Of a stretch of 64,000 bases of DNA, positions 39,613-57,712 are shown piece by piece. The stretch is from an uncultured bacterium (GTDB taxonomy: Bacteria; Elusimicrobiota; Elusimicrobia; Elusimicrobiales; Elusimicrobiaceae). Positions within the stretch are counted from its first letter, which is position 1; each line of letters starts with the position of its first letter. Where the stretch lies: NCBI GenBank assembly GCA_949294095.1, contig CASFFZ010000002.1:1-64000 (forward strand), read 5' to 3'. The position numbers and the translations under genes were made by a program. The notes beneath the pieces were generated by a model. The model saw only the letters and a program-made list of their open reading frames with translations, was not told the origin of the DNA and made no database searches.

Positions 39613-39642
39613 TTGTTTTGGCGGGGTTAATTATTGCATAAT
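39613..39642 (+). promoter_or_regulatory. Promoter of the secreted helical protein gene
   Basis: TTGTTT (39613-39618), 18-base spacer, CATAAT (39637-39642) preceded by TTG. The predicted start is near 39649, with GGGAGG (39665-39670) before the ATG. Confidence 0.55.
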
Positions 39643-39675
39643 GAAAAAAGAAGGTTCTTTGAATGGGAGGCGTGC

Positions 39676-40362
39676 ATGCGTAAAGTTTATTTTTTGTTAT
39701 TTGCTTTGATTTTTCTGTTTACGGTCGGTTTTGCCGGCGGCAACACCACCCGCGAAGCGACTTATAAGCGGCTGGTGCAGCAGCGGCAGGAATTGCTGGA
39801 GTGGGAAGTGGAACACCCGATGGCGCCTAAACTGGTGGCTATGTATAAGACGAAAGAAGCGCGGAATATACGCCGGCAGCTGTATCAAAATTTTTCCGAT
39901 TTGCGGCAACAGGAAATCAGCCAATTTAGAAAAGAACTTCGTGCGGAACTGCAAAAAACGCCCCAAGTTCCGTTTATTACGTTTAATACCCTGCCGCTTG
40001 AAAATTTAAAAAAATTAACCGCCAACAAAAAATTGTTGCTGGAATTTTTAAAAGCCTATCCGGACAATGCCGTCAATTTAACCGATGCGTATTTATTGCG
40101 TTTGTTCCAAGAGGATGAAGCCTTGGAAGAAATGATGACGTATTATTTGCTGTATCTGAAGACCTACCACGCCAATCCCGCGGCGACGAAGATTTCGGAC
40201 GAACAGGAAAAGTTATTAAATAATGCCTATCAAACGGGCAATATGCAGTTGGTGTATAAGCTGTTGTTTTCGTATGCGTCGGCCGGGCTGTCTCAGTCGC
40301 GCCGGATACTGGCGCAGCAATATGTGCGAAACTCTTTAGTAAGTGCGTTTAGTGCAAAGTAA
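39676..40362 (+). CDS. Secreted helical protein of unknown function
   Basis: A 228-residue protein with a signal peptide (MRKVYFLLFALIFLFTVGFAGG) and an almost entirely alpha-helical, charged mature part (for example RQELLEWEVEHPMAPKLVAMYK and LRQQEISQFRKELRAELQ). GGGAGG is five bases before the ATG. No domain recognised. It stands alone between a promoter and a terminator, so it is a single-gene unit, probably periplasmic. Confidence 0.75.
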   Translation: MRKVYFLLFALIFLFTVGFAGGNTTREATYKRLVQQRQELLEWEVEHPMAPKLVAMYKTKEARNIRRQLYQNFSDLRQQEISQFRKELRAELQKTPQVPFITFNTLPLENLKKLTANKKLLLEFLKAYPDNAVNLTDAYLLRLFQEDEALEEMMTYYLLYLKTYHANPAATKISDEQEKLLNNAYQTGNMQLVYKLLFSYASAGLSQSRRILAQQYVRNSLVSAFSAK

Positions 40363-43269: not shown

Positions 43270-43805
43270 TGTATCAGGGCATCAGAATCGCCGGATTCGG
43301 CGGACAAGGTGTGATTTCGGCGGGGATTCTCCTCGCGCAAGCCGGCGTGGAAGATAAGAAAAACGCCAGCTGGCTGCCTTCTTACGGCCCGGAAATGCGC
43401 GGCGGAACGGCCAACTGCTCGGTCGTCGTATCGGACGGAGAAGTGTATACGCCCATTGTGTCGGCGCCCGATACGGTAATTATTATGAACGAGCCGTCGC
43501 TGCCGAAGTTTGAGCCTTTGCTTAAAAAAGGCGGATTAATGATCATCAATAGCTCGCTCATTAATTCCCGTCCCACCCGCACCGATATTACGGTGGTGTG
43601 CGTACCGTGCAATAAAATTGCGGAAGAATTGGGGATGGATCGTATCGCTAACCTGGTGGCGCTGGGCGCGTTTATTAAAAAGACGGGCGCCGTTGCGTTA
43701 ACCAGTGTGGAGCACGCCATGAAAAAAGTGTATAAGCGTGCCAAACCGGAAATGCTGGAGCTGAACAAAAAAGCGTTGCAAGCCGGATACGACGCGGTAA
43801 AGTAA
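43269..43805 (+). CDS. korC: 2-oxoacid:ferredoxin oxidoreductase, gamma subunit
   Basis: A 178-residue gamma (CoA-binding) subunit. RIAGFGGQGVISAGILLAQAG and SYGPEMRGGTANCSVVVS are diagnostic, and length is typical. The last 13 codons and the terminator are duplicated 107 bases downstream. The encoded complex oxidises 2-oxoacids to acyl-CoA with reduced ferredoxin in the cytoplasm, a core step of anaerobic amino-acid fermentation. Confidence 0.95.
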   Translation: MYQGIRIAGFGGQGVISAGILLAQAGVEDKKNASWLPSYGPEMRGGTANCSVVVSDGEVYTPIVSAPDTVIIMNEPSLPKFEPLLKKGGLMIINSSLINSRPTRTDITVVCVPCNKIAEELGMDRIANLVALGAFIKKTGAVALTSVEHAMKKVYKRAKPEMLELNKKALQAGYDAVK

Positions 43806-43830
43806 GCAAAAGCGAAAGAGTGGTGGATTT

Positions 43831-43863
43831 ATTCCCCGGGGGCGCAGAACCCGGGGAATTTTA
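43831..43863 (+). terminator. korC terminator, copy 1
   Basis: Stem TTCCCCGGG / CCCGGGGAA with TTTTAA. Part of the duplicated block; the loop is GGCGCAGAA or shorter. Confidence 0.8.
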
Positions 43864-43937
43864 ATGCCCCGTGAAAAAAGCGTTGCAAGCCGGATACGAC
43901 GCGGTAAAGTAAGCAAAAGCGAAAGAGTGGTGGATTT

Positions 43938-43970
43938 ATTCCCCGGGGGCGCAGACCCCGGGGAATTTTA
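43938..43970 (+). terminator. korC terminator, copy 2
   Basis: Second copy of the same hairpin; the A-to-C change at 43956 lengthens the C-run of the right arm (ACCCCGGGG). Two terminators in series should make readthrough into the next gene very low. Confidence 0.8.
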
Positions 43971-44071
43971 ACGGGTTTTTAAGGCCTAGTGTCCGGGTGG
44001 GTCTTTTTGCCCTTGTACGCGCCGGGATAAAGAGTTAAGTTATAAGTAACCTTGAACAGGAGGAAGCTTGC

Positions 44072-45178
44072 ATGAAACATCTTTCAGCCGTTTTATTGAT
44101 TACTTGTTTATTCCTGCCGGCGGGGCAGAGCCTGGCCCAAAACCGCTATTCTTCGGCCATGCAAGCCGTTCGTGCGGGCGTCGTGTCCAACGGGAGCAAA
44201 TTTACACGGGTTGCCGCGCGTGAATTTTTTGCCAATCCGGTACCGCTTTCTATTGCCGAGTTTAAAACACCGGAGGCTATCCGCCGCAGTTTGGTGGCCC
44301 ACGGCACGCAGGAAAGCCTGCGCAAGTCCCAGCAATACAGGGAAAACTTAGAAAAATTTTTAGAAGTAAAAAAAGAAATGGATATTTTCCTGCGTTATCA
44401 GGAATTAGAGCCCCAAATGCTCAGCGCGGCGGAAATAAATGCCCGCTGGGAATACGCCCAGGAAGGGAAAAAAGCCTTGCAGCACATGGAACGTATTGTG
44501 GGTGCTCGGGATCCGGGCGTGCACTTGGGTAAAATATATATTGAACGGGTGTTGAACGCGTTGAAGCCCACCTATGCGGGCTATTCCTCCAGCAATAATG
44601 CTGCTATGCCGGAGCGGCTGCGTGCGGAAAATTCGTTTAACGCCAGTCAGTTTTTGTTAAAAGATGTAGACGGAAGTTCTTTAACCCGCAAAAACACGAT
44701 GCCGGGATCCGAAGGGTTTGCCCAAGCCAAGCAGATGGCGGCCCAACTGCCCCAGATGACGATTGCCGTTTTAAACGACGATCCCGAAATTTTGGAATGG
44801 GCGCGCAATTGGAATGCGCAGGGCTTTTTCGGCCCGGGGAGCCGTGTTTCTTTGTTTGATTCACTTACCAAATTGGTGGAATGGACGAAAGATGTAAAAT
44901 ACGATGTCATTTTAATGGATTATGTGTTAGAAGACGGGCTGAGTGTTTTTGCCATTGACCGCATTCGGATGGCGGGAGACAAATCCACCGTCATTTTGCT
45001 GAACAGCGCTTTAATGGATGACGAGGTGCCGGCGGAGGAATTGTTTGAACACGGGGCGGACGGTTTTATTTCTTCGGTGGGCTTCCGCGCCGATAACGGC
45101 GGAGCTCGGGTGGCCAATGCTTTGTATAATTATATGCAATATCACGGGCGTGCCTCGCTTACGCCGCATGCCAAATAA
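44072..45178 (+). CDS. Exported protein with a receiver-like domain
   Basis: A 368-residue protein with a signal peptide (MKHLSAVLLITCLFLPAGQSLA, cleavage near residue 22) and a helical, charged N-terminal half (about 25-170). The C-terminal part (about 228-355) looks like a response-regulator receiver domain: MTIAVLNDDPEILEW (acidic pair Asp236/Asp237), VILMDYVLEDG (phosphoacceptor-like Asp283), VILLNSAL (Ser312) and EHGADGFIS. The conserved lysine is replaced by serine. A receiver domain behind a signal peptide is unexpected, since phospho-signalling is cytoplasmic. CAGGAGGAAGCTTGC precedes the ATG. No kinase gene is nearby. Confidence 0.68.
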   Translation: MKHLSAVLLITCLFLPAGQSLAQNRYSSAMQAVRAGVVSNGSKFTRVAAREFFANPVPLSIAEFKTPEAIRRSLVAHGTQESLRKSQQYRENLEKFLEVKKEMDIFLRYQELEPQMLSAAEINARWEYAQEGKKALQHMERIVGARDPGVHLGKIYIERVLNALKPTYAGYSSSNNAAMPERLRAENSFNASQFLLKDVDGSSLTRKNTMPGSEGFAQAKQMAAQLPQMTIAVLNDDPEILEWARNWNAQGFFGPGSRVSLFDSLTKLVEWTKDVKYDVILMDYVLEDGLSVFAIDRIRMAGDKSTVILLNSALMDDEVPAEELFEHGADGFISSVGFRADNGGARVANALYNYMQYHGRASLTPHAK

Positions 45179-46477: not shown

Positions 46478-46556
46478 ATATGGGAATAAGGCCTTTTTAT
46501 TCTATAAAATTACAAGTGGAAACGGAGCGGCCCTGTTCAGGCAAGGGGCAAATTTA

Positions 46557-46562
46557 TATAAT
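46557..46562 (+). promoter_or_regulatory. -10 box of the first pilin gene
   Basis: Perfect TATAAT at 46557-46562, with TGTTCA (46534-46539) at 17-base spacing as a weak -35. The start near 46569 leaves a 16-base leader with AGGAGGG, so this pilin differs from the other two in having a normal leader. Confidence 0.5.
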
Positions 46563-46584
46563 AAACTATCTTTTAGGAGGGCCT

Positions 46585-47055
46585 ATGAGAAAAGGGTTTA
46601 CGCTGATTGAATTATTAATTGTGATGGTAGTGGTAGGGGTATTGGTTACGGTAGCTCTGCCCAAGTATTTTGCTTCCATGGAGCGCGGCCGGGCCTTGGA
46701 GGGCATCAGCAATTTGCGCGCCGCCAGCGATTTTGCAAATGCCACCTATGTGATGCGGGATAATACCTATATTCGCAATGCCATTGTGGATACTTCTAAA
46801 AATATGTTGAGCGGCAATTTGACAAAATCGTCTTATTTTACGCCGCCGCAATGGTTTTCGGGAACGTCGGACACGGTGGTGCTGGTAAGCAGCCGGGTGG
46901 ATGGCGGGTATGAATTGTTTGCCGTCAATCAAGGAGGGGAGTTGAAATATATTGCCTGTTCGGGCGATGAAGAACTTTGCAAAAACGCCGGGATGGAAGA
47001 AGCCTCTTTTACGGACAGTTATTCAAACAGCAATTTGATTTTGGACTTCCGTTAA
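46585..47055 (+). CDS. Type IV pilin-like protein, divergent form
   Basis: A 156-residue prepilin-like protein. MRKGFTLIELLIVMVVVGVL gives a three-residue leader (MRKG, cleavage before Phe) with Glu5, then the hydrophobic helix. The C-terminal domain has one cysteine pair (ACSGDEELC). The leader is much shorter than in the two other pilins in this window and the globular part is unrelated, so it probably serves a different filament or a minor-pilin role. TTTTAGGAGGGCCT precedes ATG. Monocistronic, with its own terminator. Confidence 0.88.
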   Translation: MRKGFTLIELLIVMVVVGVLVTVALPKYFASMERGRALEGISNLRAASDFANATYVMRDNTYIRNAIVDTSKNMLSGNLTKSSYFTPPQWFSGTSDTVVLVSSRVDGGYELFAVNQGGELKYIACSGDEELCKNAGMEEASFTDSYSNSNLILDFR

Positions 47056-51658: not shown

Positions 51659-51692
51659 TTGACTCGTTTTTTTTTTTGATACATTGGGACAT
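51659..51692 (+). promoter_or_regulatory. Pilin promoter with an 11-T tract
   Basis: TTGACTCG (51659-51666), T11 (51667-51677), then GATACATTGGGACAT and the ATG at 51693. A -10-like TACATT (51680-51685) is 15 bases from TTGACT. The same arrangement with T8 precedes the pilin gene at 57209. No Shine-Dalgarno. Tract length would set the -35/-10 spacing. Confidence 0.6.
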
Positions 51693-52190
51693 ATGCATAA
51701 ACAGGTTCAAAAAAACATATTTTTATCCGGAACGCGCGGATTTACGCTGATAGAGCTGCTGGTGGTTGTTTTAATTATCGGCATTCTGGCGGCGGTTGCT
51801 TTTCCCAAATACGAGCAGGCGGTTTGGAAAAGCCGTTACGTGCAATTGATGTCGGTGGTGGATCAACTTTCCGAGGCGCAGGAAGTATATTATCTGGCCA
51901 ACGGCGCCTACGATGCTACCGGCGAAAATTTGGATATTGAAAAACCGAAGAAAATGGATTTTTCTTTGTCTTTGGGATTTAATGGCTCGGTGTATGTGGC
52001 ACAAGTAAAAAAGAAACCTCTTTATTACGTTCGTTATCAAAAAGTAAATGGGGGCTGGAGCGGTGTGCGCCAATGCCGCGTAATGGGGGATGATGAAATC
52101 GCTCACAAAGTATGCAGCTCTTTAACCGGCGTGCCCATCCATATGAACGCCGATGACGCCAGCGGATATACATATTACAGATTTCCATAA
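51693..52190 (+). CDS. Type IV pilin-like protein with T-tract promoter
   Basis: A 165-residue prepilin. The leader MHKQVQKNIFLSGTRG is long and basic, cleaved before FTLIELLVVVLIIGILAAVA (Glu5 present). After the helix come KYEQAVWKSRYVQLMSVV and a globular domain with a C-terminal disulfide-like pair (QCRVMG, VCSSL). The N-terminal half, the KSRY block and YYLANGAYDATGENLDI match the pilin at 57209 (YQMANGTYATDAEQLDM), so these two are recent relatives. No assembly genes are nearby. Confidence 0.92.
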   Translation: MHKQVQKNIFLSGTRGFTLIELLVVVLIIGILAAVAFPKYEQAVWKSRYVQLMSVVDQLSEAQEVYYLANGAYDATGENLDIEKPKKMDFSLSLGFNGSVYVAQVKKKPLYYVRYQKVNGGWSGVRQCRVMGDDEIAHKVCSSLTGVPIHMNADDASGYTYYRFP

Positions 52191-57208: not shown

Positions 57209-57712
57209 ATGCAAGAAATTTATCAAAAACCCTTCCTCGGCGGGAAAAACGCTGGATTTACGCTCATAGAGCTGTTAGTGGTGGTATTAATTATCGGCAT
57301 ATTGGCCGCGGTGGCCTTGCCACAGTACCTATATGCAGTCAATAAAAGCCGCTATCAGGAAGCGGTTTTGTTGGTGGAGCGAATTTATCAGGCGCAAAAA
57401 CTGTATCAAATGGCGAACGGAACATATGCGACCGACGCCGAACAGTTGGATATGGATATTCCCCCTCAGTTTACGGTATCCGGCACTATTTTAACTTCTC
57501 CGGAGTTTTCGTGCAGCATCAGTCATGTGTATTGTGTGTTTAGAAAGGGAAATTTACAAAGCGTTGCTTATAATCATGCACTCAGCCACGGGCGCAGGGA
57601 ATGCAATGTGTTTAACTTTTCCATTCAATCGGCCCACGCTTTTTGTAAAAAATACAGTGGGAAAAACGAATATACTACTTATGGCGCATGGAGCGTTTAT
57701 ACACTGGATTGA
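57209..57712 (+). CDS. Type IV pilin-like protein with T-tract promoter, second copy
   Basis: A 167-residue prepilin. Leader MQEIYQKPFLGGKNAG, cleaved before FTLIELLVVVLIIGILAAVA. The mature stalk shares the NKSRYQEAVLLVERI block with the pilin at 51693. The globular part has four cysteines (FSCSISHVYCVF, RECNVF, AFCKKYS), more than the other two, so its disulfide pattern differs. It follows pcrA by 70 bases under its own promoter and is followed by a strong terminator. Confidence 0.92.
   Translation: MQEIYQKPFLGGKNAGFTLIELLVVVLIIGILAAVALPQYLYAVNKSRYQEAVLLVERIYQAQKLYQMANGTYATDAEQLDMDIPPQFTVSGTILTSPEFSCSISHVYCVFRKGNLQSVAYNHALSHGRRECNVFNFSIQSAHAFCKKYSGKNEYTTYGAWSVYTLD

Follow-up and report, generated by a model that had tools for sequence, protein, structure and literature searches.

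The locus studied here raises the question of whether a receiver domain can be at work outside the cytoplasm. To our knowledge, receivers are treated as cytoplasmic everywhere else. In the window (the whole stretch of DNA that was analysed, 64,000 nucleotides long), a first-pass annotation had nevertheless described a protein that combines an export signal with a receiver-like C-terminus. Few bacterial domains are as common as the receiver (about 2 million PF00072 entries; PMC12632262), and the role of the receiver fold without phosphorylation is presented as an open question in the 2025 review of pseudo-receivers (Bourret et al. 2025, PMC12632262), which nowhere mentions the periplasm, secretion, or signal peptides. 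We found nothing relevant on exported, periplasmic, or secreted receivers in the open-access literature, an absence that is in itself weak evidence. We therefore asked what the sequence, the predicted structure, and the relatives of this protein indicate about its location, its active site, and its use.

A Predicted Signal Peptide at a Well-Placed Start

The gene (44072..45178, + strand, including the stop codon) is an intact ORF with an ATG start and encodes a predicted exported pseudo-receiver protein of 368 aa; all features described below lie on the same + strand. A Shine-Dalgarno sequence, AGGAGG (44058..44063, +), is located 8 nt 5' of the ATG, and this strong site supports the start that bears the signal peptide. 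The next in-frame Met is residue 30, and explaining the gene does not require initiation there. No promoter was found by a promoter scan. The N-terminus, MKHLSAVLLITCLFLPAGQSLA|QNRYS, was judged by eye: its n-region is basic, a hydrophobic core follows, and the cleavage site is S-L-A, so that the sequence reads as a classic Sec signal peptide with SLA|QN at its end. It comprises residues 1-22 (44072..44137, +), with the predicted cleavage after Ala22 exactly where the first-pass annotation had put it, and inspection of the signal peptide revealed no lipobox. That annotation had also considered that the true start might lie downstream of the signal peptide. This is not borne out, since the signal peptide recurs both in close orthologues (68-74% identity), which are present in four other species, and in the more distant paralogues present in many.

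To recognise signal peptides across the family, we relied on visual inspection and on a permissive rule of our own, which 32 of the 66 ORFs in the window pass, many of them membrane proteins. The rule is too loose when used alone, so the weight rests on recurrence across the family: despite identities of mostly 15-30%, a signal peptide was observed in essentially every member whose start is intact. Six family ORFs fail the rule, two because of its strictness, one because it is cut at the edge of the locus, and three because they are truncated or frameshifted. These observations bear directly on the possibility that the proteins are atypical response regulators of the cytoplasm whose start was mis-called or whose hydrophobic N-terminus stays uncleaved. 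The receiver domain is cytoplasmic in every other case known, which favors this possibility; however, the strong Shine-Dalgarno sequence precedes the very ATG in question in the window gene, the n-region/h-region/AxA pattern is present in essentially all intact members, and even an uncleaved N-terminal segment of such a kind would place the C-terminal domain outside. The signal peptides predicted throughout the family argue against a canonical cytoplasmic response regulator, and we regard a cytoplasmic location as very improbable.

The C-Terminal Third Is Modelled as a CheY Fold

The sole Pfam match in the window protein is Response_reg (PF00072), covering residues 232-334 with an E-value of 5e-7 and a score of 30.3 bits against a cut-off of 30.2. 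The same Pfam family is matched by 42 of 47 family members, with a best E-value of 2.8e-13, and the homology to receivers that these sequence matches point to stands independently of any structure model. An AlphaFold2 model of the window protein, built on 47 family members (pLDDT 88, pTM 0.78), consisted of a helical N-terminal part followed by a C-terminal domain of alternating strands and helices. When residues 225-362 of the model were aligned with CheY using VIA-align, 126 of the 127 CheY residues were superposed (Z 15.5, rmsd 2.1 Å). All significant Foldseek matches of the model were receivers or receiver-bearing proteins, and the good matches in a viral structure library were ordinary receivers only. 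According to the model, the C-terminal third of the window protein is a CheY-fold receiver; from Pfam, the AlphaFold2 model, and the structural alignment, we delimit this (pseudo-)receiver domain to about residues 227-362 (44750..45157, +). The earlier claim that the C-terminal ~130 residues match the receiver fold is thus upheld by both the Pfam match and the structural alignment, and the fold unlike CheY that would have contradicted it did not emerge.

The Acidic Pocket Is Conserved and the Switch Lysine Is Lost

We addressed the state of the active site by aligning 79 family members with CheY. The landmarks named in the first-pass annotation, namely NDD at 235-237, D283 within VILMDYVLEDG, S312 after VILLN, and GADGFIS at 328-334, all stand where they had been placed; the reading of the pocket, in contrast, needed correction, because N235 is the equivalent of CheY D12 and D236 that of D13, so that the pair is N-D rather than D-D. 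At this predicted metal site (N235-D236, 44774..44779, +), D236 is invariant (79/79) and position 235 is Asn in 70 of the 79. Also invariant in all 79 members are D283 (44918..44920, +), the equivalent of the phospho-acceptor CheY D57, and R299 (44966..44968, +), at the CheY R73 position, as are G328 and D330. S312 (45005..45007, +), the equivalent of CheY T87, is Ser or Thr in 74 of the 79. The place of CheY Lys109 is occupied by S335 (45074..45076, +) in the window protein and by Lys in a single member, in agreement with the earlier observation that the invariant lysine had been replaced. By comparison, in a set of 27 rows of cytoplasmic receivers, which includes CheY and counts two overlapping loci twice, the Lys was kept in 26 and D57 in all. 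The one exception within the family is a paralogue (L031 5284-6444, - strand; G021:C6) with Lys-Pro at the CheY Lys109-Pro110 position, which is either a reversion or an ancestral remnant.

The canonical five-residue set (DD, D, T/S, K) is therefore incomplete: the D13, D57, and T/S equivalents are kept, and D12 and the Lys are largely gone. A pseudo-receiver is defined as a PF00072-type domain that lacks one or more of these five key residues (PMC12632262; PMC12548384). With the Lys and the first Asp missing, the family members are pseudo-receivers by this 2025 definition, and they share with bacterial pseudo-receivers (Bourret et al. 2025, PMC12632262) both PF00072 membership and the absence of at least one active-site residue. 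They differ in two respects. Across pseudo-receivers generally, about 80% have a non-acidic residue in place of the pair's second Asp (DD2), which in CheY-like receivers binds the metal directly, and about 65% retain the phospho-acceptor D (PMC12632262), whereas DD2 and D, usually lost elsewhere, are both invariant in the window family; moreover, the family is predicted to be extracytoplasmic, a location absent from that review. Compared with CheY and PF00072 in general, the fold, the significant sequence homology, the D13 and D57 equivalents, and the Ser/Thr at T87 are alike; unlike them, the receiver of the window family follows a helical domain in an exported protein, has lost Lys109, and mostly has Asn in place of D12.

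Judging from the alignment, the acidic pocket formed by the D13 and D57 equivalents is intact rather than decayed. We interpret the invariance of D236 and D283 together with the loss of the Lys as probable selection for a cation-binding pocket without a phosphorylation switch; the acids could alternatively mark a catalytic or phosphorylated site. In particular, an exported receiver might still acquire a phosphoryl group at Asp283 outside the cytoplasm, either from a small-molecule donor or through an unusual kinase. The retention of D236, D283, and S/T312 would suit such a mechanism, and substitutions of DD, T, or K need not abolish receiver phosphorylation (PMC12632262). Against it, the Lys is lost in 78 of 79 members, the first Asp is mostly Asn, and the aromatic switch residue at the CheY Y106 position is Tyr or Phe in only about half of the family. 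In addition, ATP and the known kinases are cytoplasmic, and we consider a phosphorylatable exported receiver very unlikely. On proteins with export signals, the retention of the metal-binding acids and the loss of the lysine suggest that the fold has been put to a new purpose outside the cytoplasm.

The Receiver Belongs to a C-Terminal Module

The N-terminal half of the protein had been called unrecognised. This held true insofar as no Pfam family matches it, but the half contains a conserved helical domain (about residues 79-226; 44306..44749, +), a long hairpin (79-112/119-143) followed by shorter helices, which forms one module with the receiver. When the helical domain was modelled alone, the best Foldseek E-value was 0.85 and the best VIA Z was 8.8, both within the chance range for helical bundles; because only generic bundles were matched, we assigned no known fold and claim no new one. 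PhyR appeared among the top Foldseek rows, but we did not accept this match as evidence of kinship. The N-terminal domain of PhyR is sigma-like, and the chance-level matches of our helical domain did not single out such a domain. PhyR-type response regulators similarly have a helical domain followed by a C-terminal receiver; however, the rmsd over the whole protein is about 18 Å, so that only the receiver truly superposes, and PhyR is a cytoplasmic anti-anti-sigma factor.

The receiver is always paired with the helical domain, and the two constitute one unit of ~270 aa that ends at the C-terminus or close to it. The last helix and the C-terminal tail (45080..45175, +) read ...NYFYYR..HGWxR at the very C-terminus in most paralogues, and most module proteins end within 7 residues of where the module itself stops, W-x-[RH] being conserved at this end. 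In the orthologue group of the window protein, the tail has diverged and lacks the W-x-R end, which indicates that not all members depend on the tail. The module is placed in this way in proteins of 350-540 aa and likewise in giants of 1,828-2,166 aa. Giant relatives of 1,790-1,864 aa were found in other genomes, one of which (G030) is without any family match, and the module thus looks like an optional C-terminal addition.

In the giant exported proteins with the module (L040:3554-10042 and its relatives in L082, L098, L041, L042, L043, and L097; 1,830-2,170 aa), one or two blocks of the type VLLVHGHGG...YMNACFSG resemble the caspase-like cysteine peptidases of clan CD. Their His-Gly and Cys motifs are broadly conserved among the giants, and the blocks have no Pfam or PDB sequence match.

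The position of the module invites a comparison with sorting signals. By analogy with the T9SS CTD, a dedicated machinery in the envelope might recognise the helical domain, receiver, and W-x-R end together and thereby secrete or retain the proteins. Such a function would accord with the location of the module at the extreme C-terminus across very different protein lengths, with its conserved W-x-[RH] end, and with its appearance as an optional addition to giant exported proteins. However, no dedicated machinery was identified, the window orthologue group has a different C-terminal end, and the acidic pocket would not be needed for sorting; furthermore, most members hold little besides the module, which leaves little cargo to sort. 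With the T9SS CTD and PEP-CTERM, the family shares, by analogy only, a C-terminal module that is conserved among exported proteins of differing lengths, and it differs from them in its alpha/beta CheY fold and in having neither a PEP motif nor a C-terminal membrane helix. The T9SS CTD itself, an Ig-like beta-sandwich, was ruled out by the model, in which the C-terminal domain of the family is alpha/beta and CheY-like, and examination by eye of the last 45 residues of 79 members revealed no PEP-CTERM signal (PEP motif, membrane helix, and basic cluster). We consider a sorting or anchoring function unlikely, yet it is the main rival explanation, the exported phosphorylated receiver and the cytoplasmic protein being less likely still.

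The explanation we favor, and hold to be probable, is that a receiver predicted to lie outside the cytoplasm and to bind a cation has been withdrawn from phosphorelay and put to use at the C-terminus as a module for interaction. The protein would be exported by Sec and fold outside the cytoplasm, in the periplasm or at the cell surface, where the receiver would no longer take part in any phosphorelay. A divalent cation (Mg2+ or Ca2+) may fill the acidic pocket and stabilise the fold, and the receiver, the helical domain, and the C-terminal tail may together interact with, or dock onto, a partner located at the envelope or close to it. Specificity or activity could then come from the N-terminal regions, which vary and in some proteins exceed 1,600 aa.

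A Multigene Family Confined Almost Entirely to One Genus

A search for homologues with the same architecture, which the first-pass annotation had proposed, yielded a genus-level multigene family, of which about 80 sequences were examined; the fold, the export signal, and the lysine loss all hold across them, in support of the exported receiver that had been suggested, for which a structural or a ligand-binding reuse of the fold had been put forward as possible roles. The gene content of the window would suit a gut member of the Elusimicrobiota. In profile searches, the family was detected in 43 of the 66 genomes of the genus, with 1-5 matches each, and outside the genus in one of 199 sampled genomes of the window's phylum, as a weak match in a sister genus. 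No family match was found in the plasmids or phages searched, and a contig scan with the window protein, based on exact peptides and able to detect close relatives only, found no relatives elsewhere. Within the sampled phylum, the family is confined almost entirely to one genus. In keeping with export, the cysteine content was low in the exported receivers, at 0.25% compared with 0.67% in cytoplasmic receivers. In a receiver tree, the exported receivers formed one side of a 100/99 branch separating them from 25 ordinary response-regulator receivers, mostly of the same phylum; given how short the alignment and how limited the outgroup were, this is consistent with one export event and a subsequent radiation. 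Taken together, the export signal, the fold, and the family are well supported, and from them we infer the function. A family that was apparently exported once, and that kept the metal pocket and lost the switch, offers a natural experiment on the receiver fold without phosphorylation.

Rapid Divergence and Turnover at Fixed Sites

Among the window orthologues, constraint is strongest on the receiver (82-86% identity, dN about 0.1, dS above 1), and the signal peptide drifts (36-55% identity). In the same genome comparisons, the identity of the window gene was 46-74%, compared with 92-98% for korB and korC and 71-81% for the MFS gene, which indicated that the whole gene evolves faster than its neighbors. 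The locus marks a fast-evolving exported protein family without a Pfam family of its own.

Gene order was analysed at two sites. In 15 genomes, 1-5 tandem family copies on the same strand lie between a DUF1646 gene, identified by Pfam, and nuoE-nuoF, named by eye; in all 8 of the family-lacking genomes tested, the DUF1646 gene and nuoE are adjacent, 73-273 bp apart. The window gene occupies a site between korC and the MFS gene, which is empty in the relatives G083 and G029 and holds two family copies in G217. No kinase was observed among the neighboring genes identified around family members. Such turnover, with copies gained, lost, and duplicated in tandem at fixed sites while diverging fast, would be typical of surface-exposed or interacting proteins. 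We tentatively propose, as a possibility rather than an expectation, an envelope or secreted system specific to the genus, with a cation-loaded exported pseudo-receiver as the common C-terminal docking part of diversifying small and giant exported proteins, gained and lost as tandem cassettes at fixed insertion sites; these might be the first receivers known to work outside the cytoplasm.

Some family copies contain in-frame TAA stops (G002:C38:7588-8760, G122:C1:184358-185500, G174:C3:59348-60487, and G168:C2:36842-37963), consistent with pseudogene formation in tandem arrays. Just upstream of the window gene, ~95 bp comprising the 3' end of korC and the downstream terminator-like sequence are tandemly duplicated (window 43769-43990), either by a recent duplication or as an assembly artefact. 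A second exported-looking protein, without a Pfam match, is encoded at window 39634-40362 (MRKVYFLLFALIFLFTVGFAGG...). Finally, pilin-like ORFs with an N-terminal methylation motif are scattered singly at window 46480-47055, 51684-52190, and 57209-57712; Pfam N_methyl was confirmed for the first, and the motif in the other two was recognised from the sequence. Pilin-like ORFs also adjoin several pseudo-receiver family members in other genomes.
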